The position numbers and the translations under genes are program-made. Under the pieces are notes generated by a model. That model saw only the letters and a program-made list of their open reading frames with translations, was not told where the DNA came from and did no database searches. A DNA stretch of 54,045 bases from a virus: the IMG/VR virus record IMGVR_UViG_3300046008_001100, positions 1 to 54,045 of that record; one strand, written 5' to 3'. Below are positions 7,548 to 48,888 of the stretch, piece by piece (the first letter of the stretch is position 1; the number at the start of each line of letters is the position of its first letter).

Positions 7548-7553
7548 ACTGCC

Positions 7554-10754: not shown

Positions 10755-10769
10755 AACTTGTGTATTGGT

Positions 10770-16564: not shown

Positions 16565-16584
16565 AACTAAATTTAATTACACTA

Positions 16585-17360: not shown

Positions 17361-17375
17361 AACTTATTTATTATA

Positions 17376-17404: not shown

Positions 17405-17409
17405 GCCTT
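17381..17409 (-). terminator. Rho-independent terminator after the 173-residue gene
   Basis: Read on the minus strand: AAGGCTT, a short loop region, AAGCCTT, then a run of seven T. It lies 23 bases past the stop at 17432 and shares its stem sequence with two other terminators in the window. Confidence 0.85.
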
Positions 17410-17967: not shown

Positions 17968-20628
17968 CTAAAACTTAAAGAATTTGTTAATATTTTGATT
18001 TAATACTACAGCACCCCATCCTAAATCTGAATATAATGATTCTAATTTATTTTTCATAACTGAATCAAATAAACCGTCTCTATCTATATATTTTTCAACA
18101 AATTCCATTATTTCAGGTGGATCATTATACCCATTAAATCCTACAACATCAACTCGGTATGGGTTGTCTTTTAAGTAAGCTATAAACATTTTATCACCAA
18201 TTTGAAATGTTGGATATTTTTTATCTAACTTTTTAAATCGTAAAATATCATTATAATAAATAGCAGCTTTTGTATTAATTGGACATTTGTTACCTAATCT
18301 TGAAAATATATCACCAGTCATAGGAGGTGATGCAATATATTCTTTCATCTTCTTTAAACCTGTTGGTTTTAATATTGTTCTCCAATCAACTGTTCTTATT
18401 GATGTTCTAAAATCTAGAATTTGTTTATCAATATCAGTTTTTTCTCTACCAAACATAATTTCATTAATAATATGTTCACCAAATTTTCTAAATATAGGAG
18501 GGAAATTTGATTTCATCAAATCTAATCCTTTAACATCTAGTTCATCTACTGTTACACCTTCTTTATTAACAATATGCATTGCGTATCTTCTTTTACCTGC
18601 AAAATAACCTCTATCTAATACAACCTCTTGTTTTAATTCAAAATAATGTGGTTCGTCAGGAAATTTAATGTTAAATAACTCTTGTACTAAAGTATTTAAA
18701 TAATTATTTGCTAATGATTGTATTTCAGTAGCAACTTTTAATACCTCTTGTACAATTGTTTCTTGATCTGCAGTGGCTAATTCTGGTTTACGGAATAATA
18801 TTAAATCTTTAACTTGAATAAACAACGAGTCAGTATCTGATGTTACAATGTAATCTTTATCTTCTGTACCTAATTGTTCATTTAACCAAATATTTACAAA
18901 TTTAATTGATTCTTGTGTTAATCGTTGACCTGTTAGTGTAATAGCTTTAGATATAAACTTATTACCATCTGTGTATCTCCATCCGTTAATAGCAAATACA
19001 CCATAAACGTCATTTAATTTAATCTTGTAAGCATGTTGTCTACTATTATAAAAATCACCTAACTCTTTATTACCTGATTTGTATGCTTGTTTCATCAAAT
19101 CTTTATATTCTTGACGTTTAGCAAACCAATCAGATAAAATTTCACAAACAATACTAGATTTATCTTTACGGAATATAACACCAGGAGCAGAAATTATTAA
19201 ATCATTACTTTCAATAATACTAATTAATCCGCCTACTGTAATTTGTGAAGTAGCAATTGTTCTATTCTTTTTAATTTTTTCAATAACAACTACTTTATTA
19301 GGATCCATTTGTTTTAATTCCTTTAAAGACCATTGATTATCAAATTTACCTCCATTTACAACACGACCTACTAGAGTTTCAATACCCATATTAAGTGAAC
19401 GAATGATTGAAGGATATAACGAGGTAAAGTCTAAGTCAATAACCCACTCATATAAACCAGGAATAGGATCTTTTAAATAACCACCTGCATATTCTGCTAA
19501 GAATATAATTTCTTCTAATTCCTCTTTAGTAATATTACCTTGCTCATATTCCCATTTTGCTTTTTTAACACTTAAATCCCTTAAAGCAGGATTCATTGTT
19601 GTAGGTTTATTAGGTGAAACAATTCCTTTACGTTTTAAATATGTTAAAATTGCTCCCTCATTTAACATTGTTGATAAGTAAATCTGTTCGTAATCAGTAT
19701 GACACAAATGACAAATTGTAATTGTTAATTCAATAAATTTTAATTTTTTCTCTAATTCAACAATAATTTCAACGTCTCGAACATTATATTCAATAAACTT
19801 ATTTACATCTTCTCTAAATAAATTATCTAATGAACCATCATATTCAATTTTACCTAATTTAACATACTTAGTACCAATATCACCTAATCGATAAGTTGGT
19901 TCTTGTTTAGTAATAAACTTTTTAAATAAAAGCATATAATCTAAATGCGCAACCCCTCCAATACTTACTGGTTGTTCTGAATATGGTGTTATTTTTATTT
20001 TATTGATTGGAGATAATGTTTTAGCTATATCTGTACCTAATACTTTACTTATTCTATAATACAAATAAGGTATATCAAAAAACATACTATTCCATCCTGT
20101 AACAATTGTAGGATCTAATTGATACCATTTATTTAAAAAACCATGTAATAAATCAGATTCGGAAGTGTAAGGTATTACCTCTTTAGTATCATCATGTACT
20201 TCTTCCATAGTACCTGTTTCATCTAATATTAAACAATAGTATTTTTTAGAATTATTATCATATAAAGCAAGTGCTGTTATTTTAGCTAATGCTTGTTTAA
20301 TACTTTCTTCGGTTAATGCACCTAATATTTCACACTCTATATCTAAATAAACAATATTGTGGAATTTTGGTGTTTCGTCTGATTCATAATATTGGTCTAC
20401 TAATAAACGTGTGGTTCTATCAACATCTTTTTCAAAATAACTTGTATCTTTCCAATCTTTAATACGATTAACAGCAGATACTCGTTCACCTTCTAATGTT
20501 TCAAATTCACCTTCATAATCTTTTTGATAATAAGTAGGCCAATATTGGAATTCCTTAAAGCCTTCCCAACTATCATCTCTTAGATAATATTGTTTTTCGT
20601 CTTTATCATAATAAATTGATTGATACAT
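17968..20628 (-). CDS. Family B DNA polymerase (T4 gp43-like)
   Basis: The 886-residue replicative polymerase is intact. 3'-5' exonuclease motifs are IVYLDIECEI (about 91-100), VTGWNSMFFDIPYL (about 178-191) and NVRDVEIIVELE. Polymerase motifs are A, DLDFTSLYPSIIRSLNMG (about 406-423); B, KIKLNDVYGVFAIN; and C, VTSDTDSLFI with the two catalytic aspartates. It works with the clamp and clamp loader encoded just downstream. It is a single-gene unit under a promoter fused to a terminator at 20637-20670. The start was chosen at the only ATG that leaves this promoter outside the gene. Confidence 0.97.
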   Translation of the reverse strand: MYQSIYYDKDEKQYYLRDDSWEGFKEFQYWPTYYQKDYEGEFETLEGERVSAVNRIKDWKDTSYFEKDVDRTTRLLVDQYYESDETPKFHNIVYLDIECEILGALTEESIKQALAKITALALYDNNSKKYYCLILDETGTMEEVHDDTKEVIPYTSESDLLHGFLNKWYQLDPTIVTGWNSMFFDIPYLYYRISKVLGTDIAKTLSPINKIKITPYSEQPVSIGGVAHLDYMLLFKKFITKQEPTYRLGDIGTKYVKLGKIEYDGSLDNLFREDVNKFIEYNVRDVEIIVELEKKLKFIELTITICHLCHTDYEQIYLSTMLNEGAILTYLKRKGIVSPNKPTTMNPALRDLSVKKAKWEYEQGNITKEELEEIIFLAEYAGGYLKDPIPGLYEWVIDLDFTSLYPSIIRSLNMGIETLVGRVVNGGKFDNQWSLKELKQMDPNKVVVIEKIKKNRTIATSQITVGGLISIIESNDLIISAPGVIFRKDKSSIVCEILSDWFAKRQEYKDLMKQAYKSGNKELGDFYNSRQHAYKIKLNDVYGVFAINGWRYTDGNKFISKAITLTGQRLTQESIKFVNIWLNEQLGTEDKDYIVTSDTDSLFIQVKDLILFRKPELATADQETIVQEVLKVATEIQSLANNYLNTLVQELFNIKFPDEPHYFELKQEVVLDRGYFAGKRRYAMHIVNKEGVTVDELDVKGLDLMKSNFPPIFRKFGEHIINEIMFGREKTDIDKQILDFRTSIRTVDWRTILKPTGLKKMKEYIASPPMTGDIFSRLGNKCPINTKAAIYYNDILRFKKLDKKYPTFQIGDKMFIAYLKDNPYRVDVVGFNGYNDPPEIMEFVEKYIDRDGLFDSVMKNKLESLYSDLGWGAVVLNQNINKFFKF

Positions 20629-20636
20629 TCTCTGTT

Positions 20637-20665
20637 AATATACAAAAAAAGGCTTGGTTTCCCAA
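20637..20665 (-). promoter_or_regulatory. Promoter of the DNA polymerase gene, fused to a terminator
   Basis: Minus strand TTG (20663-20665) lies in the stem of the terminator; TATATT at 20637-20642 follows after 20 bases. The ATG at 20628 is eight bases past the -7 box. Confidence 0.78.
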
Positions 20666-20670
20666 GCCTT
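20643..20670 (-). terminator. Rho-independent terminator after the 96-residue gene
   Basis: A nine-pair stem, AAGGCTTGG and CCAAGCCTT, with a GAAA-type loop and a run of seven T on the minus strand. It is the same hairpin as at 39725-39752. Confidence 0.9.
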
Positions 20671-22134: not shown

Positions 22135-22145
22135 AACTTTATTAT

Positions 22146-22175
22146 AATATATAAATTGTTTTTTATTTTACCAAA
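22146..22175 (-). promoter_or_regulatory. Promoter of the folE-dut unit
   Basis: Minus strand TTTG (22172-22175), a 20-base gap, TATATT (22146-22151). It fills the space between the stop of the upstream gene at 22176 and the folE ATG. Confidence 0.75.
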
Positions 22176-24172: not shown

Positions 24173-24811
24173 CTATTTTAATTTTTTCTGTGATTTTTTA
24201 CTATTGTTTTTTCTTGTAGTCCATGCTAAATTTTCTGGTTTAGTAGCTTCATATGGAGATAAACCTTCTTTAAAACACTGTGATCGGGGTTTAATATGGT
24301 CTAATGTAGGATAATCACCATGACTATAATGTAAAATTAAATTATCTTTAATATATTCTTTACTAATATAATCATAACCATCCCAATTTTCTAACATTTG
24401 TTTTCTAATTTTTCTAGTTAACCAATCACATCTTTTCCAATATTGTTTCCATCCTGCTTTATCCCAATCAATGATATTTCCTTTTTTTATTCTAGTTTCA
24501 ATTCCTTTTTTCCAAGCATTTTCATTCCAACTTTCTCTCATCTTATTAGCTCTTTCAACCAATTGAAGATTTTGTGAATTAATTTTCATCCATTCTCCTT
24601 GACATTTATTAGAACAAAAAATATTTTTCTTATTTTTATGTTCACTGTTAGGAAAATATCTAACATCTTTAAAACAACAGGAACAGGAAGTAAATTGTCT
24701 ATCTTTAGCTCTTGCTATTTGCCTACAATCAGGAGAACAATATTTACTCCCTGATCCATTTGATTTATAATGTATTTTACATTCATTACATATTTGTTTA
24801 TATCTACTCAT
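24173..24811 (-). CDS. HNH homing endonuclease with zinc-finger N-terminus
   Basis: The N-terminal 75 residues hold cysteine pairs (CNECK, CSPDC, CSCC, CSNKC) for two zinc fingers. The C-terminus has DYPTLDHIKPRSQCF and NLAWTTRKNNSKK, the D-H...N...N pattern of HNH nucleases. It is free-standing between queE and the thioesterase gene, with a strongly basic C-terminus. Its start codon sits in a nine-pair inverted repeat (24808-24829). Probable role: mobility of itself and its flanks. Confidence 0.87.
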   Translation of the reverse strand: MSRYKQICNECKIHYKSNGSGSKYCSPDCRQIARAKDRQFTSCSCCFKDVRYFPNSEHKNKKNIFCSNKCQGEWMKINSQNLQLVERANKMRESWNENAWKKGIETRIKKGNIIDWDKAGWKQYWKRCDWLTRKIRKQMLENWDGYDYISKEYIKDNLILHYSHGDYPTLDHIKPRSQCFKEGLSPYEATKPENLAWTTRKNNSKKSQKKLK

Positions 24812-24856: not shown

Positions 24857-25639
24857 TCAAACTCCACGACGAGTATCAAAGGCAATAATATGTTCTCTAC
24901 CTGTAAAATTATATCCATGTTCAGCACAAAAATCAAATACCATTGGATATACTCTTATTAACTCTTGTCTATTATCACCTGGAGGCATAATCCATGTTTT
25001 GTTTTTAGGAATATTCATCTCTACTCTAAATGCTTCAATTTCTTCCCAAATTTCAGGCATTTCTACAGGATTACACACTGGTTTAAAATGGTAATTAGTA
25101 TGATAATCAATTGTTTTACACATTGCGTCTTTATTTAAACGTAATTTATTATGTTGATCAATCATCTTTTGATCTACTACAGCTCCTTTTGGTGTTAATA
25201 CTCCTAATTTAGGAACACTATTAGTAAATTTAGGTGATAATGAAATTAAGCCAATTGGAAAATCTGTTTCTAGAAAATGTGAACCTTCAGTTTCAATTGT
25301 AATTACAATACCTCTTTCATTAGCAAAATGTGTTAATTCATTAACTAAATCAGGATGCATTGTTGGAGAACCACCTGTTAACATCATTTCAGTAATATCA
25401 GGTCTATTATCATACATTTTAACAATATCATTAAATGTAAATCCACCTTTTTCAGGATGAATGCTTGTATACCATGAATCACACCAACCACCTTCACCAA
25501 ACCAACATCTGTGAGTACAGCCTGTTGTTCTAACGGCTACTGTTGGAAAGCCTGCTCTTGAACCTTCACTTTGTACACAATAGTATAATTCTACTATTGG
25601 TAATTTTTTATCGTAATCTGTTATTCTTCCTAAACTCAT
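24857..25639 (-). CDS. queE: 7-carboxy-7-deazaguanine synthase (radical SAM)
   Basis: The 260-residue enzyme has RTTGCTHRCWFGEGGWCDSW (38-57). Its three cysteines, C41, C45 and C53, follow C-x3-C-x7-C instead of the usual C-x3-C-x2-C, because five extra residues separate the last two. MLTGGSPTMHP and ITIETEGSHF are the S-adenosylmethionine and glycine-rich blocks of QueE. It converts the QueD product to CDG in preQ0 synthesis. ATGA overlap with queD shows coupling. Confidence 0.9.
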   Translation of the reverse strand: MSLGRITDYDKKLPIVELYYCVQSEGSRAGFPTVAVRTTGCTHRCWFGEGGWCDSWYTSIHPEKGGFTFNDIVKMYDNRPDITEMMLTGGSPTMHPDLVNELTHFANERGIVITIETEGSHFLETDFPIGLISLSPKFTNSVPKLGVLTPKGAVVDQKMIDQHNKLRLNKDAMCKTIDYHTNYHFKPVCNPVEMPEIWEEIEAFRVEMNIPKNKTWIMPPGDNRQELIRVYPMVFDFCAEHGYNFTGREHIIAFDTRRGV

Positions 25640-26354: not shown

Positions 26355-26384
26355 AATATATAATTTATTTTTTAAATTTCCAAA
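26355..26384 (-). promoter_or_regulatory. Promoter of the thioredoxin-queD-queE unit
   Basis: Minus strand TTTG (26381-26384), a 20-base gap, TATATT (26355-26360). The -33 box falls inside the 3' end of the GIY-YIG gene, which codes W-K-F-K-K there. ATG follows about six bases after the -7 box. Confidence 0.75.
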
Positions 26385-26946
26385 TGTAATTGTAAGCTTT
26401 TTTTTGTCTTCCTCTACAACAAGCTCCTATTCCATCTCCTGTTTTATTTAAATATTTAGTAGCCTCTAATTGAGATGACCACTCTTTAATAAAATTTCCT
26501 TCTAAATCATATTGTAATACAGGAGTATTAATCCAAGTATTAGGCCTATTTTTGAGAAAATCTCTTGTTGCTTTTATTTTTTGTTTATGTTCTTCTTTAA
26601 ATTTTTTTCCTTTATGTGATTTTTGTTTTCCTTTATGAGATTCACTTATATTTTTACCTCTTGTAGGGTGAGATTTTAGTTTTTGGATTGATTTATCTTC
26701 CCATTTTTCAGAGCCACCTCCACCTTTATTTTTATTTTGAAGAATATATCCTTGTTTTTTAAATTCTTCAATATAATACACTTCCCATTTTCTCCAATTT
26801 AAAACTTCATCTATTATTTCCATCACAGTGTTTTTACCAAACGTTTTTTTATGGTTAAATAATCTATGATATTCATTTCTAGTTTTCCCTACATAAAAAG
26901 GAATATTATCTCCATAATGTAAATAATATATTTTGGTGTGCTCCAT
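26365..26946 (-). CDS. GIY-YIG homing endonuclease with NUMOD domains
   Basis: The N-terminus KIYYLHYGDNIPFYVGKTRN is a GIY-YIG nuclease core with variant first triplet. HKGKQKSHKGKKFKEEHKQK carries NUMOD3-type repeats, and VLQYDLEGNFIKEWSSQLEA followed by GIGACCRGRQKKAYNYIWKF is a NUMOD1 DNA-binding module. The frame extends to a GTG at 26979, but the ATG at 26946 starts at the family's usual position and I use it (193 residues). It lies between the 79-residue gene and the thioredoxin gene. Confidence 0.88.
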   Translation of the reverse strand: MEHTKIYYLHYGDNIPFYVGKTRNEYHRLFNHKKTFGKNTVMEIIDEVLNWRKWEVYYIEEFKKQGYILQNKNKGGGGSEKWEDKSIQKLKSHPTRGKNISESHKGKQKSHKGKKFKEEHKQKIKATRDFLKNRPNTWINTPVLQYDLEGNFIKEWSSQLEATKYLNKTGDGIGACCRGRQKKAYNYIWKFKK

Positions 26947-26979
26947 GATTATAAATATGTTAAAAATCAAGGAGCACAC
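26936..26979 (-). promoter_or_regulatory. Inverted repeat and late-like element controlling the GIY-YIG gene
   Basis: Minus-strand order: GTGTGCTCC (26979-26971), 26 bases that contain CATATTTATAAT (26959-26948), then GGAGCACAC (26944-26936). The first G of the second arm is the G of the ATG. A read-through mRNA can hide the start codon; an mRNA begun at the inner element cannot. Confidence 0.7.
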
Positions 26980-27223: not shown

Positions 27224-27410
27224 TTATTAATTCGTATTCTGTTGGGTTGGTATTATAAATAAAAGCAGTATTTTCTCGAAATAATAGTTTAACATTATCC
27301 CAATCAGAAGACCATTGTGGATAACCACTTAATAATCCAGCAAATACTTCACCGTTTTTATTTATAATAGCATACATTGGTCTATCAGTTATTTGACGTT
27401 TCTTTCTCAT
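27207..27410 (-). CDS. Hypothetical protein, 56-67 residues
   Basis: Unrecognised small protein with MYAIINKNGEVFAGLLSGYP and WSSDWDNVKLLFRE. The frame begins at an ATG at 27410, overlapping queC by 26 bases. A second ATG at 27377 begins exactly at MYAIINKNGEVF and avoids the overlap, so the true protein may be 56 residues. It is translated with queC and the membrane protein gene. Confidence 0.6.
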   Translation of the reverse strand: MRKKRQITDRPMYAIINKNGEVFAGLLSGYPQWSSDWDNVKLLFRENTAFIYNTNPTEYELINESEL

Positions 27411-28287
27411 GATTTTCTAGCACTGAACATACGTAAGAGACTACGTGTTCCCAAGCTACAGGACCATTTTCGTCAGCATATTCACAAGGATCAGGACGAC
27501 CTAATTTCATAAATGCTTCTACACGTTCAACTGAAGATGCTGATTTGTAGTCACTGTACCATACTTCAAAGAATACATTTATTTCGTCTTCTGTTCCTTT
27601 AAATCTTTTTTCTGATTTTATTAATTTAATTGGTTTATAACTTGTATTAGTACGTTTATATACTTCATCAAAATCTAAACCTAATTCATCACAACATTTA
27701 ACTCCATCTTCTAAGATTGTAAATTTATTACCTTCCATATATGGTGTGTAATAATTTACTAATTCTGAGTCCCAATTTCCTATTTTAAAAGCATATTCAT
27801 CCGCATTTCTAAATGCTTCTGTGCAATCAGGATAAATAGAATGATCACCACTATGTACTCCTAAAGCAATAACACATTCCGCCTCTTTTTTATTAGAAAT
27901 AGATAAAGCTACTGCTTGAATAATACTTGAAAATATTTTATTACGATTAGGTACTACAGTATCCTTCATATTTTCTTCAGCGTAATGTCCTTCAGGTACT
28001 TCAGCACCACCTTCAACTAATGAAGAATTAAGTAATTGTGCTAAACCATCTAATGTAATTATTTGATGTTTGACTAATTCATACCCTCCATATCCTCCTT
28101 TAGTACCAATGCTCCTACTATTAATATATTTTACCAATTCAGTAGCTCTTTCTAATTCTACTTTATGTTTTTGTCCATAATCAAAAGAGAGTGCAACTAC
28201 TTGATAGTTTTCTGATAGGAGTTTAATTAATAATGTGCTTGAATCCATTCCTCCACTTAAGGAGAGTACAGCATATTTTTTATTCAT
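27385..28287 (-). CDS. queC: 7-cyano-7-deazaguanine synthase (QueC-like) lacking zinc cysteines
   Basis: The PP-loop ATP-binding motif LSLSGGMDSST (8-18), FDYGQKHKVEL and VVPNRNKIFSSI identify QueC, which makes preQ0 from CDG. At 300 residues it is about 70 longer than usual, mostly by insertions around 55-75 and 218-245. The four zinc Cys of QueC appear replaced: the S-C-Y position is NTSY (Ser216) and the C-G-x-C-x-x-C block before VER reads D246, S249, S252. The rest of that helix (VERVEAFMKLGRPDP) is kept. It leads its unit at promoter 28294-28323. Confidence 0.88.
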   Translation of the reverse strand: MNKKYAVLSLSGGMDSSTLLIKLLSENYQVVALSFDYGQKHKVELERATELVKYINSRSIGTKGGYGGYELVKHQIITLDGLAQLLNSSLVEGGAEVPEGHYAEENMKDTVVPNRNKIFSSIIQAVALSISNKKEAECVIALGVHSGDHSIYPDCTEAFRNADEYAFKIGNWDSELVNYYTPYMEGNKFTILEDGVKCCDELGLDFDEVYKRTNTSYKPIKLIKSEKRFKGTEDEINVFFEVWYSDYKSASSVERVEAFMKLGRPDPCEYADENGPVAWEHVVSYVCSVLENHEKETSNN

Positions 28288-28293
28288 ATTTAT

Positions 28294-28323
28294 AATATAT
28301 TAAAATTTTTATTGTTTTCCAAA
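28294..28323 (-). promoter_or_regulatory. Promoter of the queC unit
   Basis: Minus strand TTTG (28320-28323), a 20-base gap, TATATT (28294-28299). It fills the interval between the stop at 28324 and the queC ATG. Confidence 0.75.
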
Positions 28324-29347: not shown

Positions 29348-29353
29348 GATTTA

Positions 29354-29382
29354 AATATACAAAAGAAAGCTTGGTTTTCCAA
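29354..29382 (-). promoter_or_regulatory. Promoter of the TGT/DpdA-like gene, fused to a terminator
   Basis: Minus strand TTG (29380-29382) is part of the hairpin stem; TATATT at 29354-29359 follows after 20 bases. The ATG comes seven bases later. Confidence 0.72.
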
Positions 29383-29386
29383 GCTT
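29361..29386 (-). terminator. Terminator after the membrane protein gene
   Basis: An eight-pair stem, AAGCTTGG and CCAAGCTT, with a four-base loop; the T-tract on the minus strand is TTTCTTTT, weaker than the other copies. It lies about 45 bases past the stop at 29431. Confidence 0.75.
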
Positions 29387-32301: not shown

Positions 32302-33684
32302 TTAATTTGTGTTTGATAATTCGAAAAACCTTTGTTGAATAATTGACTTGTCTACAGGGCTAATACTATTCCCGAATTGTTTATTTTGTTGAGGGGGTGG
32401 AGTATTTTGATTATTTTCATCATCTTCATCCATTTGAGATAAAATTTCAAAGTGGCCAGTAGATGTATTAGCTTTTAAATAGTACGATAATCCGTCTATT
32501 CCATATCTATTTTTCATAATGTGAAATCTTCCTGTTCCATTTACTTTGTCTTCTTTTTTTCTTGATAAAGATATAGCTACGTCAACAATCATCATTTTAT
32601 CATATGATCCTGCTGCTTTATCTCCTTCAATAATATTATCTTTTGCTCCCGCTCTATTTACTTGAGATACACTCCAAATTGGTAAGTTTAATTCTCTAGC
32701 AAGTCCTTTAGTGCTTACATAAATATCATCAATTTCATCTTTTCGTTCACGATTATTCTTTTTAGATCTCAATAGATCAACATAATCTATAATAATAAGA
32801 TCTGGTTTGAAATCTTGATCCATGCATTTTTTAATATGCGCTTCTATTGTAGAGACTGATGCTTTACCTGGTGAATATTCTGCTATTATTATTTGACCTG
32901 TTAAATTTGATATTGCTTCTTCTACTTTAATTTTATGTTTAGTAATATCTTGTACTGAAATTTTTGTAAAGAATGCATCATATCTACGACCTACATAATC
33001 AGAACCTAATTCTAGTGTATAATGTAACACGTTATATCCTAAACTAGCAGCATAACCACCAAGAGCTATTAATGACCATGATTTACCACCACCTGGATTA
33101 CCAAATAATAATCCAAAATCACCATTACCTAATCCACCCTGTAATAAATCATTAATTTCGGGCCATGGTGTAGGTACTATTGTTCTATGATCTTCTCTAT
33201 AACGTGATTCAACATCTTTATTGTATTCATGGCCTACATTTTTGTCTTGACCTGATTTTAAAGCGTTGTCAATTAATGATCTAATTGAATCATAGTCACC
33301 TGCATTTAGAAAATCTACACTTGTTAATAATGCTTTTTTTAATTGTTGATTTTTACAGAAATTTGAAAATTCTTCTTCAACATATTTTAAATCATCATCT
33401 GATGCTTTGTAAGCTTCTCTTAATTGTTCTTTAATTGATAGTTGTAAAACTTCATTATCGATTTTCTTAAGCTCTACTTTTAAAACATCCATAGTAGGAC
33501 ATGTGTGATATTTATTGAAATATTTTAATATTTCTTTAATAATCCATTTATGTGCTTGATTTGTAAAATATTCATCACTTAATACATCTTGTATATTTAG
33601 TAAAAATGCTTTATGTGTAAGTAAGGATGATAGTACTTTGGTTTGAAAACCCATCCCATATTTGTCTAGTGATCCTAATGTCAA
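32302..33684 (-). CDS. DnaB-type replicative helicase (T4 gp41-like)
   Basis: The 460-residue protein has the N-terminal KYGMGFQTKVLSSLLTHKAF and a RecA-like core: GLLFGNPGGGKSWSLIALGG (about 186-205, Walker A), DLIIIDYVDLLRSKKNNRER (Walker B) and WSVSQVNRAGAKDN. Ring helicases of this type unwind the fork for gp43. No ATG lies near the N-terminus; the start is a TTG at 33684, which places MTLGSLDKYG at the usual gp41 position. It has its own promoter at 33714-33743. Confidence 0.9.
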   Translation of the reverse strand: MTLGSLDKYGMGFQTKVLSSLLTHKAFLLNIQDVLSDEYFTNQAHKWIIKEILKYFNKYHTCPTMDVLKVELKKIDNEVLQLSIKEQLREAYKASDDDLKYVEEEFSNFCKNQQLKKALLTSVDFLNAGDYDSIRSLIDNALKSGQDKNVGHEYNKDVESRYREDHRTIVPTPWPEINDLLQGGLGNGDFGLLFGNPGGGKSWSLIALGGYAASLGYNVLHYTLELGSDYVGRRYDAFFTKISVQDITKHKIKVEEAISNLTGQIIIAEYSPGKASVSTIEAHIKKCMDQDFKPDLIIIDYVDLLRSKKNNRERKDEIDDIYVSTKGLARELNLPIWSVSQVNRAGAKDNIIEGDKAAGSYDKMMIVDVAISLSRKKEDKVNGTGRFHIMKNRYGIDGLSYYLKANTSTGHFEILSQMDEDDENNQNTPPPQQNKQFGNSISPVDKSIIQQRFFELSNTN

Positions 33685-33713
33685 AACTTTTATAATTTAA
33701 TTGTTAATACTTT

Positions 33714-33743
33714 AATATACAATCTATTTTTTATATTCCCAAA
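33714..33743 (-). promoter_or_regulatory. Promoter of the helicase-nrdJ unit
   Basis: Minus strand TTTG (33740-33743), a 20-base gap, TATATT (33714-33719). The -33 box lies within the last codons of the GIY-YIG gene, and the leader to the TTG start is about 30 bases. Confidence 0.75.
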
Positions 33744-34374
33744 TATAACCATATATAGATTTTCTTTTTCCGCTACATACTTCTGTAATAGCTGCTCCTG
33801 TTTTTTTATTTAAAAAGATAGCTGCTTCTAAAACAGAATCCCACTCTTTAATAAAATTTTTCTGTTTGTCGTATTGCATAACTTTTTTTCTTCTGTTTTT
33901 ATTTCCTTTTAAAATTTCACTTTGTTTGTCTTTCCATTCTTTAGTTCGTGTTTTACCAATTAAAGATTGACTAATTTTTTCTTTCCATTCATCATTATAC
34001 ATTTTATGTCCTTTTCTATTTTCAGACATACGTTTTTTTGTTTCTTCAGAACGAACTTTACCTTTTTGATATTCAGCTATTTTTAATTTTCCATGTTCTG
34101 TTTGTCCTGAGTTTCCAAATGCTTTATTTGTTTTATTGTAAAATAATGGGTTAGTTTCTGCTTGATAAAAATTTAACCACCATTCTTCTCTTTTCCATAA
34201 CTCTTCTTTTGAATTACACTTTTCCAATATGATTTTTTCGAAGTTATTTTTACCATATTTTATAATAGCTTTTTTTATATAAGTACCACTCCCTAAATAG
34301 TTAGGATTATTATTAATATCTTTACCTATATATTGTTTTCCATTAATTAAATTTTTAGTTAAATATATTACCAT
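33724..34374 (-). CDS. GIY-YIG homing endonuclease with NUMOD domains
   Basis: The N-terminus MVIYLTKNLINGKQYIGKDI has the GIY-YIG-type core (VIYLT...QYIGK), followed by NYLGSGTYIKKAIIKYGKN with the family's catalytic Arg/Lys region. The middle has repeats of SEETKKRMSENRKGHK and EWKDKQSEILKGNK (NUMOD3), and the end VMQYDKQKNFIKEWDSVLEA followed by IYGYIWEYKK (NUMOD1). It is free-standing between the helicase gene and the RNase H gene, and its start codon lies in an imperfect hairpin. Confidence 0.9.
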   Translation of the reverse strand: MVIYLTKNLINGKQYIGKDINNNPNYLGSGTYIKKAIIKYGKNNFEKIILEKCNSKEELWKREEWWLNFYQAETNPLFYNKTNKAFGNSGQTEHGKLKIAEYQKGKVRSEETKKRMSENRKGHKMYNDEWKEKISQSLIGKTRTKEWKDKQSEILKGNKNRRKKVMQYDKQKNFIKEWDSVLEAAIFLNKKTGAAITEVCSGKRKSIYGYIWEYKK

Positions 34375-34411: not shown

Positions 34412-35458
34412 TCATATCTTTTTAGCGAAACCGTTTAGTGTTTGATATGTAGTGTTAAGTACATATTCTGTGTTTTTAATCATATGACTTAATCCATCTT
34501 CATTATAAAGACGCATAAAATCGTTAACTTTTAGTGGTGACAACGGTTCAATCACAACCTCGTTAATATAATCTTTTTCTATATCATCCATTAGTGGATT
34601 GTGTAAGTCCATAATTACATAATTATTTTCTAATTTGTCAATTTCATCAACAACCCTCGCATAAACAATATGTTCTTTAAACTTAGCACATGAAATATCA
34701 TAGATGTCTTGTAATGTACAAGGACGTTCTGCTAATTCAGGAAACTTTTTTAATAGTCCTTTTTCACCTAATCCTTTTATACCTTCTACTTTATCTGATT
34801 TATCTCCTAACAATGTTTTATATAATATAAAATTTTCTGTTAAGACTCCAAAGCTCTGTTTAACTAAATTTTTAGTATAAAAATCTTTTTCTGTAGGTCT
34901 ATATACTGTAATTTTATCCGTTATAAGTTGAATAAAATCTTTATCATTAGATACTATGAAAACCTGAGAATTATACTTATTAGACATTATATTGCTTAAA
35001 TAGGCGATAACATCATCGGCTTCTACCTTATCTAGACTTATAGTTTTAACAGGTAAACATTTTAAATAATGTATTAATCTTACTATTTGGTCTATTTTAG
35101 CATCGTGTTCTTCTTCTAGCGATTCAAATGAATCCCAATTTGTAATTCTAACTAAATTACGTCCTGATTTGTATTCAGGTAATAAGTTCTTCCGATTTAC
35201 GGAAGAACCTACCCCATCAAATACAACGTACACAGACGTTGGTTTAATTGTACCAATTAAGGAATTCAATGAACGAATAAAACCACCCAAACCACCAACA
35301 TGAACACCTGCTTGGTTAGTAAAATTCATCATTGCAAAATTTCTAAAAAATAGATTTAAACCATCTATTAATAATACTCTTTCATAAGGATTAGTTTCTA
35401 CTGATTGTTCAGGTTCAGGAGTGTCGTTTAGTAATTTTAATAACTCGTTCTTATTCAT
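34412..35458 (-). CDS. 5'-3' exonuclease / RNase H (flap endonuclease family)
   Basis: 348 residues. VLLIDGLNLFFRNFAMM (about 27-43), VYVVFDGVGSSVNRKNLLP (about 78-96), LDKVEADDVIAYL (about 143-155) and VIVSNDKDF-type FIVSNDKDFIQLI supply the acidic cluster for two metals. GDKSDKVEGIKGLGEKGLLK is the helix-hairpin-helix that holds duplex DNA. The family removes Okazaki primers, as T4 RNase H does. It is two bases from the UvsX stop, so it is part of the gp32-uvsX unit. Confidence 0.92.
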   Translation of the reverse strand: MNKNELLKLLNDTPEPEQSVETNPYERVLLIDGLNLFFRNFAMMNFTNQAGVHVGGLGGFIRSLNSLIGTIKPTSVYVVFDGVGSSVNRKNLLPEYKSGRNLVRITNWDSFESLEEEHDAKIDQIVRLIHYLKCLPVKTISLDKVEADDVIAYLSNIMSNKYNSQVFIVSNDKDFIQLITDKITVYRPTEKDFYTKNLVKQSFGVLTENFILYKTLLGDKSDKVEGIKGLGEKGLLKKFPELAERPCTLQDIYDISCAKFKEHIVYARVVDEIDKLENNYVIMDLHNPLMDDIEKDYINEVVIEPLSPLKVNDFMRLYNEDGLSHMIKNTEYVLNTTYQTLNGFAKKI

Positions 35459-35459
35459 A

Positions 35460-36557
35460 TTATTCGGCTTCTAGGTTTTCTAATAATTCAGTGATATCGG
35501 CTTTTTCTTCCCATTCACTATTATCTTCAGTAATCCCATATTCGCCTTCACCAAGTATACTAATCCACTCATTAGCGTGTTCTTTTTTATACTTATTAAT
35601 AATATTAGTATCATCTTTGATAAAACCATGAACTGTACTTACAATAGTACCTGTTGTTGTAATACCATTAATGTGGTTTTTATCACAAGCAATTTTAGTA
35701 CGTAAAGCAAATTCAACTTTTTTCTTATCTTTAGTAGCATTTAATTTAGATGTACCAGCGTTTGTGATATTACCAAATGTTAATACTAATGAAGCATCAT
35801 AATAGAACGTGTCACCACCTTTGTTAGTCATTTTTGGACGAGCCATAGGACCTTCTGCTGGTGCAACACCTGTTTTGTTTACAATGAACAATGAATTTGT
35901 GTATTGGTAGGTTTCTTTTCTAGACATTACAATTTGTTGGTTAATAAAATTACCAAATTGTGTTGCTATTGCACCTGCGTTCCACATTGGATTGTTTTTA
36001 CCTTGATCTAAACTCATTTGGCAAGGAATTGATCCTACTGAATCCCAAATAAATAATAAATCGTAAGGTAAATTACCTTTCTTTTGTTCGTTGATTAGAT
36101 CAATAATAAAAGCAGCAATATCTTCAATTGAATTCAATGTACTTCTATCACGATAAATAAAGAAACCGTTGTGATCTACAATCTCTCCGGTTGATTCGTC
36201 AACAACGTCTTCCATCTCGAATCCCATTGTTTTCCAATGCTTCCAATCATGCTTCATCTCAGTAATAATAAGCACCGGTAAAACGCCCATTTTCTGGGCG
36301 TTTACCGCTACTTCGATTGCTGTTGTTGATTTACCAGTATTACTTTTACCTCTAACCATTGAAATATGGCCTAAGGGAATACCGGGAATTGATAAAGCTT
36401 CTTGTAAGGCAGTGGAAAAAGGAACCCATCGTTGTTCTTTAAACTTAACGTTGCCGTTAAGCATTTTTTTCTCCTTGAATGAATCAAGATTGAAATTGGC
36501 TTTAATCTCTTGGGAGACGGCGGCCGTTAGCGATTCGCTTCTTTTTACTTTTGCCAT
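35460..36557 (-). CDS. RecA-like recombinase (T4 UvsX-like)
   Basis: 365 residues. Walker A is MVRGKSNTGKSTTAIEVAVN (about 62-81), Walker B-like LLFIWDSVGSIPC, and the L1/L2 DNA-binding region runs through GAIATQFGNFINQQI and ARPKMTNKGGDTFYYDASLV. It ends in an acidic tail (ADITELLENLEAE), as UvsX proteins do. It would drive recombination-dependent replication together with gp32, encoded immediately upstream. Confidence 0.94.
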   Translation of the reverse strand: MAKVKRSESLTAAVSQEIKANFNLDSFKEKKMLNGNVKFKEQRWVPFSTALQEALSIPGIPLGHISMVRGKSNTGKSTTAIEVAVNAQKMGVLPVLIITEMKHDWKHWKTMGFEMEDVVDESTGEIVDHNGFFIYRDRSTLNSIEDIAAFIIDLINEQKKGNLPYDLLFIWDSVGSIPCQMSLDQGKNNPMWNAGAIATQFGNFINQQIVMSRKETYQYTNSLFIVNKTGVAPAEGPMARPKMTNKGGDTFYYDASLVLTFGNITNAGTSKLNATKDKKKVEFALRTKIACDKNHINGITTTGTIVSTVHGFIKDDTNIINKYKKEHANEWISILGEGEYGITEDNSEWEEKADITELLENLEAE

Positions 36558-36574: not shown

Positions 36575-37426
36575 TTAGAATGGAAGATCGTCTGAACTAT
36601 CTTCATCATCGAATAATGAATCAAATTTTTCTGCTTTTGATGTTGCTTTAGAAGCTACTGGTTGTTTTGTAGCATAATTTTTAGCTGGTGCTACTGGTGC
36701 AGTTTCTACTTCTTCTACTTCTTCTTCAGCGATAATTTCTTCTTCATTTTCTTCTGGTGTTAACCATGTTTGTAAGGTGTTTTTCAAAGTCTCATAATCC
36801 ATTTTACGTTGAATCTCTAAAATAGAAGGTTGTTCAGTTAAAAATGTTTGAATTTGAGCTGCATCTTTACTTACAGGAGATGTTTTAGGTTTAATTCTAA
36901 TTGATGATTTTAGACCTTGACGTCCACCTACATCACCTTTAACTACATCGACTGTAAAGTCTCTGCCTTCGTTGATGTCTGTGTAATCACCATAATCTTC
37001 ATCTTCAGCAATTCCTAATAACTGCATGTAGATTTCTTTTCCGAATTCCCAAAGTCTAACGCCTTGTTCTTCTTCACCACGCACAACTACTGGTGCGAAA
37101 ATTCTCATTTTAGGGTCTAGTTTTTTAGCTAATACCCAATTTTCTTTGTCATTTGTAGTGCGCAATTTTGTTGCGAATTCTACGATTGGGTCTTTTTCAC
37201 CCCAGTTGGTTAGAGCGTAAATCGGAAATTTAGAGATTCCATAGTGAACAAAAACCTCTTGAAAAGGGTTTGTTGGGCTGTTCTTTGAAGGAACAATACG
37301 AATTTGGTACTTTCCTTCTTGTTTTGGTTTCCAGTAAACTTTTGTGTAATCGATTTTTTCTTTCTTGCTTGTGTTCTGATTAGACTGTAAAGCATTCAGT
37401 CGTTGTTTAATTGCATCTATATTCAT
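36575..37426 (-). CDS. Single-stranded DNA-binding protein (T4 gp32-like)
   Basis: 283 residues with the gp32 layout: a basic N-terminal domain (IDAIKQRLNALQSNQN) for cooperativity, then an OB-fold core KVYWKPKQEGKYQIRIVPSK and VFVHYGISKFPIYALTNWGE, and a long acidic C-terminus ending LFDDEDSSDDLPF, which recruits replication partners. T4 gp32 has a zinc site in the core; I see no cysteine cluster here, so the core appears zinc-free. It is first in its unit. Confidence 0.9.
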   Translation of the reverse strand: MNIDAIKQRLNALQSNQNTSKKEKIDYTKVYWKPKQEGKYQIRIVPSKNSPTNPFQEVFVHYGISKFPIYALTNWGEKDPIVEFATKLRTTNDKENWVLAKKLDPKMRIFAPVVVRGEEEQGVRLWEFGKEIYMQLLGIAEDEDYGDYTDINEGRDFTVDVVKGDVGGRQGLKSSIRIKPKTSPVSKDAAQIQTFLTEQPSILEIQRKMDYETLKNTLQTWLTPEENEEEIIAEEEVEEVETAPVAPAKNYATKQPVASKATSKAEKFDSLFDDEDSSDDLPF

Positions 37427-37451
37427 AAATCTATATTTGTTTAATGTGGGA

Positions 37452-37481
37452 AATATAAGAACTTAAGTTTGAGACACCAAA
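37452..37481 (-). promoter_or_regulatory. Promoter of the gp32-uvsX-RNase H unit
   Basis: Minus strand TTTG (37478-37481), a 20-base gap, TATATT (37452-37457). An inverted repeat, AGTTTG and CAAACT with a six-base loop (37466-37483), covers the -33 box and half the spacer and may be an operator. Confidence 0.74.
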
Positions 37482-38423: not shown

Positions 38424-39704
38424 TCATCTGGTCTGCTCAAAGTCATAATCTGTCCCATATTTGGTTTTTATTTGTAATTTATATTTTTTAAATATTTCTC
38501 TCAATTCATCTTCAATCCCCTCATCTCCTATATCAAATAAAAACGAATCATAAGTATATAGTACTATTTTAGTTTGTTTACCTCTTAACAATTTATGAAT
38601 ATCCATTAGAATATAAGTGTTAACCGCTGATTCTACATTCTGTAAAATATAGTTAAACAATTTCTGCGGATTCATGTTTTCTAACCTCTCCGTTTCAAAT
38701 ATATAACCTGAAATCGGTACTTTATATTTACCATTTGTTTCAAATTCGTTCCACGCTTTGTTAATAAACGCTTTCACCATTTGAAAATACTCTAAATGCT
38801 CGTATTGTTTGTAAATACCGCCATATAGTTGTCTAAACGTAATTTGCTTGGATTCCTCATAACTTACCCCGTACATTTCAGCAAATGCACTATGTACGTC
38901 TAAACCTTGAAAATCATAACCAATTAACCTAGCCGCTAGATGTGGGTGGTAAGCAGAAATATCAATTTCCACAAACTTATTGTTTGGAATGAATGAGGAT
39001 CTTACTCCGCTATCTTTATTTAATGCGGCAAAATTAATACCATTAAAGGAATTACTTGGTCTACGAGTAGTGGTAGATAAGTTGTATTGCGTGTAAATTC
39101 TATTGTCGTATATAGAATAAAAATCTTTAGTCGGGTGATAACTTTCATTGAATTTGTCTTTGTTTATTTGTATTCCGTTTCTCTCAATTCCAAAAAACGC
39201 TAGTATTACTTTTTCGTTATAAAATGAATAATATTCGGGTAACGGTTGAGATAAAACTTTTTTTACTTGCTCATAAATATGTTCACATTTTTCATAATGC
39301 TTAGAAACAGGTATTATTCTATTAAGTTTTGGGTAATCCGTATTTTGAAAATGTATGTGTGCTTGTGTGTCGCTTTGTATATACGTAGGATTAAGTGGGG
39401 ACAGGCAGCATATGTTTTTAAATGGAAAATAGTATAGTGCCGACTTTTTATCACGTACCCATACTTTATCTATTTTGTGTATAAACGCGTATATAGTTGT
39501 CTTATTAATGCTAAATGTTTCACTATGGTCAACGCATAACATATAAGCTTTAGTGTTATTAAACGGTTTTATATATACTAAAGATATGTCGTTAATGGCA
39601 GGGTGGATATTATCGTTAAAAGGAATTATTTCAACAAATGCTTCTTTTATAGGATTTTGAATAAAATATCCTAATTGCTCTTCATTTTCTAATAACCAAA
39701 ACAT
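38424..39704 (-). CDS. Family A DNA polymerase-like protein
   Basis: 426 residues. The C-terminal two thirds follow pol I: YNLSTTTRRPSNSFNGINFA (207-226, cf. T-G-R-L-S-S), motif A FVEIDISAYHPHLAARL (244-260, Asp248), motif B SKQITFRQLYGGI (285-297), ILQNVESAVNTYI (353-365) and motif C VLYTYDSFLFDI (381-392), where the usual HDE reads YDS with Asp386. The first 160 residues resemble a worn-down exonuclease domain without its acidic motifs. The phage also has a complete family B polymerase, so this may be a repair or accessory enzyme. Confidence 0.8.
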   Translation of the reverse strand: MFWLLENEEQLGYFIQNPIKEAFVEIIPFNDNIHPAINDISLVYIKPFNNTKAYMLCVDHSETFSINKTTIYAFIHKIDKVWVRDKKSALYYFPFKNICCLSPLNPTYIQSDTQAHIHFQNTDYPKLNRIIPVSKHYEKCEHIYEQVKKVLSQPLPEYYSFYNEKVILAFFGIERNGIQINKDKFNESYHPTKDFYSIYDNRIYTQYNLSTTTRRPSNSFNGINFAALNKDSGVRSSFIPNNKFVEIDISAYHPHLAARLIGYDFQGLDVHSAFAEMYGVSYEESKQITFRQLYGGIYKQYEHLEYFQMVKAFINKAWNEFETNGKYKVPISGYIFETERLENMNPQKLFNYILQNVESAVNTYILMDIHKLLRGKQTKIVLYTYDSFLFDIGDEGIEDELREIFKKYKLQIKTKYGTDYDFEQTR

Positions 39705-39718
39705 AACCTTTTGATATA

Positions 39719-39747
39719 AACATACAAAAAAAGGCTTGGTTTCCCAA
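39719..39747 (-). promoter_or_regulatory. Promoter of the family A polymerase gene, fused to a terminator
   Basis: Minus strand TTG (39745-39747) in the hairpin stem, a 20-base gap, then TATGTT (39719-39724), here with one change in the -7 box. Confidence 0.68.
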
Positions 39748-39752
39748 GCCTT
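39725..39752 (-). terminator. Rho-independent terminator after the 772-residue gene
   Basis: Nine-pair stem AAGGCTTGG/CCAAGCCTT, loop GAAA-like, then seven T on the minus strand, 23 bases past the stop at 39775. It separates the virion block from the replication block. Confidence 0.9.
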
Positions 39753-46155: not shown

Positions 46156-48888
46156 TTACCAACTTCCTCCTGCACCGCCTCCGCCGAAGCCTCCGCCGCC
46201 AAATCCGTTCCTTGGTTTTTGTGGGATAAATAATTCAGGATTTGAATATTTGTCATCAGGAATACTATAACGTGGGGGTACTGATGTTTGAGGTGGAGGA
46301 GGAATATATTTTGGATTTTCAATTTTAGGATTTATTAATCTTTTTTCATCTGTATTCGTTTCGTTTGCTTCAGGTGTTACATCTGTCGGTGTAACATCAG
46401 GAGCAGTACTACCATATTCATTTCCTGTAGGATCTTCTAATGATATATAATGTTTATAATCATTATCAAAATATTGTACTTCAGGTCTGAATTTTTGTAT
46501 AGGTGTAAAATTACATGTTACTTTAAGAATATGGGGTAATTGTTTAATTTTTGTGTCTCTTTCTCCATCAACATCTATTCCTATTTCCCATGTTGTATCT
46601 TCACTAATATCATACGTTAAACTAGTAATTATACCTGGTTGTTCATATATATAACCTCCAATAGTAAATTGAACCATATTACCTCTCATATAACCATTAG
46701 GACTATACTCAGGAGTTAAAGATGATGCTAAATAATTTAATCTTTTATACATTGGAATTAACTCTTGTTTAGATTGAGCTGCTACTGTCCAAGATAATGA
46801 CATTTGTCGAGTAAACCCATTATAATTATAAAAACTTTCACCTCTTCCTAGATATTTTGTTGGATTCCATTCTGCAGTATATGCATCTGATATTGAATTT
46901 AAAAATGCTCTAAAATGTAAAAATGTTTTTAAAGTAGGAGTATTATTGTCTATAATTGCTATTCTAAAATTACATAAATCTGATATTGTATCGTCTGCTT
47001 CTGTATCTTTATAGCTAAGTAGTGCATTTATATCATCTAGTGGGCCTGTTCTTCCTCCTGAGTATACTACACCATTAGTATAATTAGCATAGCTTTTACC
47101 TGCTCGTGCTCCAGGGCCATCACCATTTAAACCACCTATTTTAACTCTTTTTTCTATACTTTTATCTATATAATTTGGAGCTTCTGTTAATTGACCAGCA
47201 TCTATAGCTTTTTGTTTAGAACCTGCTGACACTTTTTCTAATTTATCTCTTAGAACTGCTCTAAAATCTCGAATTGCAGGTGAAAAAGATAATTTACCAG
47301 GATTATTTTTTTCATCTATTAAATCTGTTTGAGAATAAGTATAAGTATTATTATTCCTAATTAATTGATTATTTTTTAAAGAACCAGAATTATATACATT
47401 ATTATAACTTCCACTGTTGTTAATTTTAGACCCAGAAGCTAGTGTTTGATATGTGTTACTAACTCTATTTGTTAAACTAGAAGTATTTTTAGTTGCAATA
47501 TCATATTGTGGATTCCATGATTTTTCACCAGTTATTTGTAAAATAGTTCCTTGATTTTGAGAAACTTTTACATTAAATTTAGGTAAATCTTGTTTTCCAA
47601 AACTACCTGATTTTATTTGATAAGAATCATAAGTCCATGATTGACTAACATTAAATATTAAACCACTTTCTTGTATAGCGTCTATATTTAAAGTATTAGG
47701 TTCTGTTTTTATGTTTTTTTGTATAAAACTTCCACCAACTCCTATTATTCTTTGATTTTCAGGAACTATTTCGTCAACTAATTTATTATTTTTTATATAA
47801 GGGGATTGTTCACGTTCAATCTCTAAAGATTTATTATTTTCAATATTACGTGAATTTTGAATTGTAACATAATTTAAATAATTACTAGAAAATTTTTTCT
47901 TTTTACCCCATATAAAATCAGAACCTTTAGTGTATTGAGGTATATCAGTATTATTTTGAAGAATTGTTCCTGCTTCTTGTGGTGTGTTTACATCAAATAA
48001 AGGTAAAACAGATGATGTATAATTTATATATTTTGATTTTGAAACATCATAAATTTTATATTTACCTGTAGTTGTCCATGATTGGCTAGGATCAATAAGT
48101 ATACCACCTTGTGATATTTGATTATTATTTAATGTATCAATAGATCTTGAAGATCCCTTGTAAAAATATATTGGATTAGTTTTGGCTAATGAATTATTTA
48201 CACCTGTTCTTTGATCTGCAAATCTTATATTAGTTTTTCCTACTCCTAAAGTAGATCCTGGTCCTCCTGAGTATGAAAGTAATAATGGATTTAAACTAAT
48301 TGGGTCAGTTGCGAATCCTTTAATTCCTGGAAGAGAGCCTCTTTTATTTATTATTTTTTCATCGTATAAACTATATAACCTATTATCTTCAGGCTGTTGA
48401 TTATTAGTTACTGTTTCTGAATATGGTATTATTAATGATTGTTTATTTAAATGAATTCCAAATGCTACTACACCAGCTTGTGCTATAGTAGTTAATGGAT
48501 TATAAATACCTTCATTTAATCCTTTACCACTTGCTTGAGTACGAACAGCTGTGCGTGATAATATCTGTTGTTTAGAAGCAAATAGTAAACCACTAGGTGA
48601 TTTTAGATCACCAAACATTTTTGTTAATCTTAAAGCATCAGTAGCAGAATTTGAAACTGCTAAAGTTCCTCCTCTTAAAATAAAATCTTTATTAACAGCT
48701 CCTAAATTACTTATGTCATCAGGAATTGGAATTTGAATATAGGGTTGGCCACTACTTCCTCCATCAATTCTATCTTTACCATAAGGGATATTAGTCAAAC
48801 CAGGCTGATTTCCGTTGCCGGTATAACCTTGTCCGCCATTATAAAACTTAAAGTTTTTTGGATCTGTAAGTAGGTTTATTAACCCCAT
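46156..48888 (-). CDS. Large tail/baseplate structural protein with Gly-rich C-terminus
   Basis: 910 residues. NGFTRQMSLSWTVAAQSKQE (about 695-714), GYMRGNMVQFTIGGYIYEQP and WEIGIDVDGERDTKIKQLPH form a beta-rich domain seen in tail proteins of related phages. The centre is low-complexity with repeated N-N-S-G-S patterns. It ends RNGFGGGGFGGGGAGGSW, a glycine-rich tail whose codons make the only GC-rich patch around. The order tape measure, 95-residue protein, this gene, gp53-like gene suggests a baseplate or tail-fibre attachment role. Confidence 0.68.
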   Translation of the reverse strand: MGLINLLTDPKNFKFYNGGQGYTGNGNQPGLTNIPYGKDRIDGGSSGQPYIQIPIPDDISNLGAVNKDFILRGGTLAVSNSATDALRLTKMFGDLKSPSGLLFASKQQILSRTAVRTQASGKGLNEGIYNPLTTIAQAGVVAFGIHLNKQSLIIPYSETVTNNQQPEDNRLYSLYDEKIINKRGSLPGIKGFATDPISLNPLLLSYSGGPGSTLGVGKTNIRFADQRTGVNNSLAKTNPIYFYKGSSRSIDTLNNNQISQGGILIDPSQSWTTTGKYKIYDVSKSKYINYTSSVLPLFDVNTPQEAGTILQNNTDIPQYTKGSDFIWGKKKKFSSNYLNYVTIQNSRNIENNKSLEIEREQSPYIKNNKLVDEIVPENQRIIGVGGSFIQKNIKTEPNTLNIDAIQESGLIFNVSQSWTYDSYQIKSGSFGKQDLPKFNVKVSQNQGTILQITGEKSWNPQYDIATKNTSSLTNRVSNTYQTLASGSKINNSGSYNNVYNSGSLKNNQLIRNNNTYTYSQTDLIDEKNNPGKLSFSPAIRDFRAVLRDKLEKVSAGSKQKAIDAGQLTEAPNYIDKSIEKRVKIGGLNGDGPGARAGKSYANYTNGVVYSGGRTGPLDDINALLSYKDTEADDTISDLCNFRIAIIDNNTPTLKTFLHFRAFLNSISDAYTAEWNPTKYLGRGESFYNYNGFTRQMSLSWTVAAQSKQELIPMYKRLNYLASSLTPEYSPNGYMRGNMVQFTIGGYIYEQPGIITSLTYDISEDTTWEIGIDVDGERDTKIKQLPHILKVTCNFTPIQKFRPEVQYFDNDYKHYISLEDPTGNEYGSTAPDVTPTDVTPEANETNTDEKRLINPKIENPKYIPPPPQTSVPPRYSIPDDKYSNPELFIPQKPRNGFGGGGFGGGGAGGSW

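Follow-up and report, generated by a model that had tools for sequence, protein, structure and literature searches.

Why would a T4-like phage that carries a complete replicative DNA polymerase encode a second one? We considered this question for the window, a PolB-bearing 54-kb fragment (54,045 nucleotides, the whole stretch of viral DNA that was analysed). The original prediction had placed a complete gp43-type polymerase at 17968, and this is borne out: a replicative PolB of the gp43 type, 886 aa long and with an exonuclease domain, is encoded at 17968..20628 on the minus strand, with Pfam and PHROG matches to PF00136 (E=1.6e-30), PF03104 (E=2.5e-18) and phrog_262 (residues 13-885). The second gene lies at 38424-39704, also on the minus strand, and encodes 426 aa from an ATG start. 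A second polymerase of 426 residues had been predicted with no strand stated; the ORF is real, and the opposite (plus) strand across the same positions is full of stops.

The second polymerase is a member of the divPolA1 family

The single 426-aa protein matched PHROG 17 (‘DNA polymerase’) with E=8e-11; a Pfam search and a phmmer search against the PDB with the same protein gave no match. A profile of the family, built from 21 sequences that include the window and one distant outlier, matched E. coli Klenow over the palm and fingers with E=4e-9. The assignment of the protein to the family A polymerases therefore goes well beyond chance. The family A-like identity that had been proposed for it is thus supported by PHROG 17 and the Klenow profile, as well as by a structural match to Bacillus Pol I, described below.

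The divPolA1 family has been described in 14 phages, Flavobacterium phage immuto included (Yutin et al. 2024, PMC11348598; preprint PMC11188092). Those parts of PMC11348598 that deal with the family describe genomes of 155-190 kb in which a regular family A, B or C polymerase is present alongside divPolA1, replication genes lie downstream of it and GroEL or GroES is found near the regular polymerase. The enzyme is described there as having an active palm, a truncated thumb and an inactivated exonuclease, with all three catalytic aspartates replaced, and a role in replication is inferred. The window protein is a member of this already named family and is not new in kind. With the divPolA1 of the immuto phages, as described in the same parts of PMC11348598, it shares a similar size and fold, the truncated thumb, a second, regular polymerase, downstream replication genes and GroEL, which is encoded at 14308-15918 of the window, ∼2 kb from PolB. 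Immuto gp001 and the window polymerase are 35.3% identical over 98% (E=1e-76). In a tree that holds relatives from the immuto lineage, immuto gp001 itself being absent, the 26 divPolA1 sequences form one side of a 100/100 branch, with 12 regular phage PolA sequences on the other. A polymerase identical to that of the window is also encoded on a contig of 171,684 bases. The ORF, PHROG 17, the Klenow profile, the structural model and the tree all identify the gene at 38424..39704 as divPolA1, an accessory family A DNA polymerase.

The family is common in viral contigs. A scan with the single polymerase protein gave 73 loci, and an alignment scan confirmed at least 587 stretches. Relatives outside the immuto group are found in Microcystis phage Mel-JY01 and a 484-kb uncultured phage (LR756508), and neither is listed with the 14 genomes of the figure legend of PMC11348598. 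A scan with the LR756508 polymerase returned no relatives, and a third lineage was reached through a scan with the Mel-JY01 homologue of P2, the product of the gene that follows divPolA1. Together, 221 distinct family sequences span three deep lineages. For the family statistics, identical sequences were counted once, incomplete ORFs were left out of the alignments, and both the window itself (L077) and one distant sequence with the usual Glu (L076) were omitted. The host on record for the immuto phages is Flavobacterium sp. LMO8.

A literature search for the word divPolA1 returned solely Yutin et al. 2024 and its preprint, and no experiment on the family was found. In PMC11348598, neither the part on ‘Two novel phage PolAs’ nor the ‘Discussion’ mentions a sugar-gate histidine or P2. 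What is added here to the known family is a full-length model, a set of invariant pocket changes, the P2 partner and a survey of co-resident polymerases and primases.

The omitted locus L076 encodes, at 6639-7814, a more distant family A protein of 392 aa, whose motif A retains the usual Glu and whose motif C reads HDA. In the tree, this protein branches outside divPolA1, on a long branch.

A predicted Pol I fold with almost no thumb

The AlphaFold2 model of the polymerase (alignment of 53 sequences) had a mean pLDDT of 92.4 and a pTM of 0.90, and its best Foldseek E was 1e-18. Among solved structures, Pol I large fragments come closest (Z 25.9, rmsd 3.9), and the model matches them from end to end: residues 1-424 superpose on residues 300-876 of Bacillus Pol I, with 395 residues aligned to a Bacillus chain of 579. 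The Pol I-fold motifs A, B and C are present by profile, model and superposition, and the catalytic aspartates are in place as judged by sequence alignment and whole-chain superposition, as expected of the polymerase that had been predicted. In common with the Klenow and Bacillus large fragments, divPolA1 has motifs A, B and C, the O helix, the C-terminus and, by superposition, the fold of the exonuclease domain. Sequence and model together point to an architecture comprising an exonuclease-like domain that lacks the acidic pair, a palm, shortened fingers and almost no thumb.

DivPolA1 differs from the Pol I large fragment in the thumb and fingers. In the profile alignment, only 8 positions (194-201) stand opposite 93 Klenow residues (236-328 of chain 1kln) that we take to be the thumb; on its own, the part of the profile that precedes this gap matches only weakly (1.4 bits). 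A further ∼14 residues following the O helix are also missing relative to Klenow. The profile gap, together with the alignment of 395 residues to a 579-residue chain, corresponds to the truncated thumb that characterizes divPolA1.

The N-terminal part gave no match when its profile was compared with PDB sequences. Whole-chain superposition suggests that an exonuclease fold is nevertheless still present at the N-terminus, and the exonuclease-like domain would cover residues ∼1-130 (39315..39704, minus strand; boundary approximate). In the first N-terminal strand (residues 19-30), an acidic-x-acidic pair was found in none of the 221 distinct sequences, and one glutamate, E25, is retained in 184 of them. 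The predicted lack of exonuclease residues at the N-terminus is thus borne out for the acidic pair of this strand. A vestigial proofreading domain is likewise known from the Pol I of Gram-positive bacteria, as noted in the relevant part of PMC12776460. From the near-absent thumb and the loss of the acidic pair in the exonuclease-like domain, we infer that divPolA1 is probably an active but distributive enzyme that is unable to proofread.

Catalytic residues are retained and the nucleotide pocket is altered

Alignment with Klenow places motif A at D248 to H253 (D-x4-H, in FVEIDISAYH; 38946..38963, minus strand) and motif B, the O helix, at K286-F290-Y294-G295 (38820..38849, minus strand); in the family alignment, motif C is Y385-D386-S387 (in LYTYDSFLF; 38544..38552, minus strand). 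The aspartates predicted for motifs A and C are indeed at 248 and 386, and both are invariant in the 221 distinct sequences. K286, Y294 and G295 are likewise present in 221/221 and F290 in 220/221, in agreement with the active palm described for divPolA1. More generally, the equivalents of Klenow D705, K758, F762, Y766, N845, Q849 and D882 are conserved in 219 to 221 of the 221 sequences, and Lys348 and Glu358 are invariant in the family.

Four other Klenow positions, E710, R754, R841 and H881, are altered as a block. The equivalent of Glu710, the sugar gate, is His253 in all 221 sequences and that of His881 is Tyr385, also in 221/221. Tyr282, four residues upstream of K286, replaces Arg754 in 210/221, and the R841 equivalent is Gln or Asn in 214/221 (register taken from the helix). 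As these are dNTP-binding residues in Klenow (the changes being E710H, R754Y, R841Q/N and H881Y), ordinary dNTP polymerisation by divPolA1 is not assured.

These positions were compared with those of 12 ordinary phage family A enzymes, comprising 11 hand-picked regular phage PolA (9 of 40 rows and 2 of 14) and immuto's own, with motif A chosen by eye where the pattern matched several times or never. Glu at 710 and His at 881 are present in 12/12 of these controls, and Tyr for the motif C His in 0/12; divPolA1 has His and YD in place of the usual sugar-gate Glu and HD in 221/221. Arg754 of motif B was found by pattern in 9/12 controls, the other three (crAssBcn23, RHEph16 and UTK0002) giving no pattern match. 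Residue 387 of divPolA1 is Ser in 153 sequences and Ala in 68, and the last Glu of motif C is absent from 8 of the 12 ordinary enzymes, with Ser or Ala there in 7. The YDS that had been singled out as a replacement for HDE is thus present, but it is only half a signature: the Tyr for His is distinctive, and the Ser for Glu is not special.

The way in which sequences were collected could bear on such counts. One scan selected loci by LYTYD, a pattern that includes Y385 and D386, or by a second pattern with N351, Q355 and E358; another used six patterns, one of which holds H253 and one N351, Q355 and E358. Where the scan patterns held neither H253 nor Y385, both residues were nonetheless present in 35/35 sequences. 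Both were also present in all 54 of the sequences reached solely through P2, and since these were not chosen by the residues in question, they are free of this selection bias.

In Pol I, ribonucleotides are excluded by Glu710, the sugar gate (Astatke 1998 as cited in PMC13228545, in the part concerned with this residue). His253 could make sugar selection less strict, or just achieve it in another way. It might be supposed that His253, with the changes at R754 and H881, allows divPolA1 to use rNTPs or to start or extend an RNA-DNA primer, and the invariance of H253 and Y385 (54/54 even via P2), set against Glu and His in all 12 ordinary enzymes, would fit such a change of function. However, the gate-assisting residues F290 and Y294 are retained, the bulky His may still block a 2′-OH, and a DnaG-type primase is present in all of the longest related records (see below). 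We regard altered sugar selection as quite unlikely. T7-type RNA polymerases have Gly at the sugar-gate position.

The loss of several substrate-binding residues across the whole family could instead indicate a catalytically silent or regulatory protein, such as a replisome component with a structural task or the decaying remnant of an exchange of polymerases. A decaying relic would not keep invariant catalytic residues, yet both catalytic aspartates and the equivalents of Lys758 and Tyr766 are found in 221/221 sequences, and that of Phe762 in 220, across three deep lineages. A relic is therefore unlikely, and we consider a silent role of any kind to be highly improbable.

Regular polymerases and primases accompany divPolA1

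Of 26 related records, 23 have a regular PolA or PolB; these include all 16 of the records of ≥150 kb, three of which are near-identical by their matches. Among the records with no regular polymerase, G006 (120 kb) has no PolA, PolB or PolC and G008 (114 kb) has the divPolA1 match alone; in G022 (22 kb), no PolB was found, PolB being the sole family sought there. Each of the three could be a fragment. Of 15 records searched for PolC (PF07733), only LR756508 gave a match. Relatives of the primase annotated as DnaG in immuto were found in 13/15 records of one set and 7/10 of another (G006 being in both sets); no contig among the five misses exceeds 136 kb, and the records of ≥150 kb were positive in 16/16 cases.

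As both enzymes are present in 16/16 records of ≥150 kb, divPolA1 substitutes for neither an absent replicase nor an absent primase, and we rejected both roles. The original prediction had included priming-related synthesis among the possible functions; as a substitute for a missing primase, this is not supported, given the immuto DnaG relatives.

In LR756508.1 (L003), the PolB match is in three pieces over 8 kb (259363-267278), perhaps as a result of inserted elements. The same genome has a PolC-type alpha subunit match at 47415-48068, besides divPolA1.

P2 is a near-constant partner of divPolA1

The gene that follows divPolA1 encodes P2 (37982..38458, minus strand), a conserved partner of no known family, recognized by its adjacency in relatives. 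The longest start gives a protein of 158 aa and an overlap of 35 nt with the polymerase gene; inner ATGs are possible starts at codon 5 (154 aa) and codon 13 (146 aa, just past the polymerase stop). The polymerase had been predicted to be coupled to a 146-residue protein: the overlap holds, and 146 residues is one inner-start option where the longest start gives 158 aa.

P2 was found within 900 nt downstream of divPolA1 in 154/155 distinct sequences with L076 dropped (200/202 loci with enough sequence). The sole miss was LR756508, where P2 lies ∼1.5 kb downstream. At locus L325, a gene of ∼730 aa stands between the two. By longest ATG, and with redundancy kept, P2 overlaps the polymerase gene by 14-35 nt in 132/211 loci and begins 16-22 nt past it in 65/211. 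Starting instead from P2, divPolA1 was found upstream in 64/64 testable loci of one scan and in 57/64 of the scan of the Mel-like lineage; in the 7 misses of the latter, the sequence ahead of P2 is only 1.7 to 2.0 kb long, and the gene spacing in that lineage is ∼2.2 kb in the loci listed. In a phage collection, the records with P2 were exactly the 6 in which divPolA1 matched below 1e-30; four of these are immuto. Between the window and immuto, P2 is 52.7% identical and the polymerase 35.3%.

The AlphaFold2 model of P2 had a pLDDT of 80.4, with one of five models reaching 80. The first 13 structural rows were all polyomavirus T-antigen origin-binding domains, with Z values of 6.7 to 5.8 over 86-100 residues, which are below the value of 8 under which the tool warns of a mere common arrangement. 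Foldseek against the PDB returned nothing at E ≤0.001, the best E of a profile search was only 0.74, and a conserved His-x-His is absent from P2. Against a viral library, the P2 model gave one significant match, to an uncharacterised phage protein that is 36% identical. The modelled likeness to T-antigen is a hint of nucleic-acid binding, and an invariant HRKK stretch would suit nucleic-acid contact.

The pocket and the partner could be combined in a bolder proposal, a two-part enzyme in which His253 rebuilds the pocket, P2 replaces the thumb and the pair would write or extend ribonucleotide-containing strands. This is improbable in our estimation. If it were true, divPolA1 and P2 might, for example, extend RNA primers, or seal gaps with any nucleotide, in a widespread phage group; we know of no ribonucleotide-writing activity of a second family A polymerase in a phage replisome. 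The invariant sugar-gate His and the near-obligate P2 do turn ‘involved in replication’ into runnable assays, and there could be technical uses for a compact, thumb-poor enzyme whose sugar selection is unusual.

The downstream genes suggest a Pol I taken apart

Four further replication genes follow P2 on the minus strand: a gp32-like ssDNA-binding protein (36575..37426; PF08804, E=3.4e-11), a UvsX-like recombinase (35460..36557; phrog_97, E=1.3e-17), a 5′-3′ exonuclease (34412..35458; phrog_107, E=3e-33) and a DnaB/gp41-like helicase (32302..33684; phrog_19, E=1.2e-81). In relatives, these are found downstream of divPolA1 within 3 kb in 126/126 cases, 4.5 kb in 109/110, 6 kb in 89/90 and 8 kb in 27/27, respectively, counting genes on the same strand in distinct sequences with enough flank, at fixed distance limits and with the loci of the P2 scans excluded. 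Both the window and immuto show the order divPolA1 - P2 - gp32 - UvsX - exonuclease - helicase. The window and its relatives thus have the downstream replication genes described for divPolA1. In immuto, the exonuclease gene is annotated as a 5′-3′ exonuclease, and in Mel-JY01 as DNA polymerase I (346 aa). Constancy of neighbours could also come simply from the gene order of the group.

The reading we favour, to which we assign a probability of about 0.5, is that divPolA1 is a non-proofreading accessory polymerase that fills short gaps together with P2, gp32/UvsX and the exonuclease. Bulk DNA synthesis would be carried out by PolB (a large PolA in relatives), with divPolA1 filling the short gaps that arise in phage recombination and lagging-strand repair. 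P2 would hold divPolA1 on the DNA or recruit it, gp32 and UvsX would present the substrate, and the 5′-3′ exonuclease of the same gene run would remove primers or flaps. Jointly, these genes would do what bacterial Pol I does with its fused domains; divPolA1 phages carry the 5′-3′ exonuclease and P2 as separate genes. We favour gap filling and recombination repair because of this split, Pol I-like arrangement, and because a thumb-poor enzyme with no visible proofreading suits short gaps. Against this reading stand the altered dNTP-binding residues, the separation of P2 from divPolA1 in L325 and LR756508, and the fact that gap filling in T4 is performed by gp43 alone.

Lesion bypass, one of the roles suggested in the original prediction, would use the same features differently: an open, thumb-poor, non-proofreading enzyme would be called in where PolB stalls. 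The loss of the thumb, the lack of the acidic pair in the exonuclease-like domain and the regular polymerase alongside are all consistent with this. DNA polymerases theta and nu, which are also family A, are among the fold matches of the divPolA1 model; pol theta performs lesion bypass and pol nu has no proofreading. Both differ from divPolA1 in having a full thumb and the sugar-gate Glu and in being eukaryotic repair enzymes. Pol theta likewise has no proofreading, is error prone and crosses template ribonucleotides, according to the part of PMC12776460 that concerns it. However, K286, F290 and Y294 of the divPolA1 O helix are as strictly kept as in a replicase, and the gene adjoins core replication genes rather than a variable repair region, so that lesion bypass seems to us unlikely.

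The divPolA2 of barbaviruses, as described in the relevant parts of PMC11348598, is also an extra family A palm with no thumb or exonuclease, beside PolB; by that description it differs in having another N-terminal domain, a variable neighbourhood and sometimes several paralogs per genome.

Other genes of the window include QueE, QueC and GTP cyclohydrolase (24857-25639, 27385-28287 and 21457-22134), which suggests 7-deazaguanine DNA modification as in immuto. Homing/HNH endonuclease genes at 33724-34374 (phrog_314), 26365-26979 (phrog_314) and 24173-24811 (phrog_1271) stand between or beside replication and modification genes.

A promoter-like element and terminator upstream of divPolA1

The gene had also been predicted to have its own promoter, of early type. 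A promoter-like element, CTTGG-N19-TATgTT, is located at 39718..39748 on the minus strand; it follows a consensus seen in relatives, the window copy having one mismatch in the second part. TTG-N20-TATATT was found upstream of divPolA1 in 114/160 distinct 100-base stretches compared with 50/2000 random ones; the window copy, with its mismatch, is not among the 114, and the upstream counts also leave out L002 and L003. From this enrichment in relatives, the promoter part of the prediction is well supported. A secondary spacing, TTG-N14-TATATT, was found in 18/160 stretches versus 8/2000, and TAnnTTTG alone was slightly enriched (16/159 versus 46/795). A plain sigma-70 scan showed no excess, with 33 found against a mean of 36.5 in shuffled sequence.

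The promoter-like element is overlapped by an intrinsic terminator of the upstream gene, with a 9-bp stem and a T run (39731..39752, minus strand), identified in a terminator scan. A similar hairpin was found in 48/161 distinct upstream stretches and in 21/483 control stretches.

The pattern YTTGG-N19-TATATTA, with exact spacing, repeats across the window, with 21 matches on the minus strand and 4 on the plus strand. This repeated element resembles the Bacteroidetes -33/-7 promoter type. Ten minus-strand copies occur shortly before ORF starts, including those of PolB and gp32; by pattern, these promoter-like copies are at 39718-39748, 37451-37481, 33713-33743, 29353-29383, 28293-28323, 22145-22175, 20636-20666, 17375-17405, 16584-16614 and 10769-10799. 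At four places (39718-39752, 20636-20666, 29353-29383 and 17375-17405), the first part of the promoter is apparently inside the 5′ arm of a T-run hairpin. Terminator and promoter thus appear to share one short stretch, the tool-scored terminator being only that at 39731-39752.
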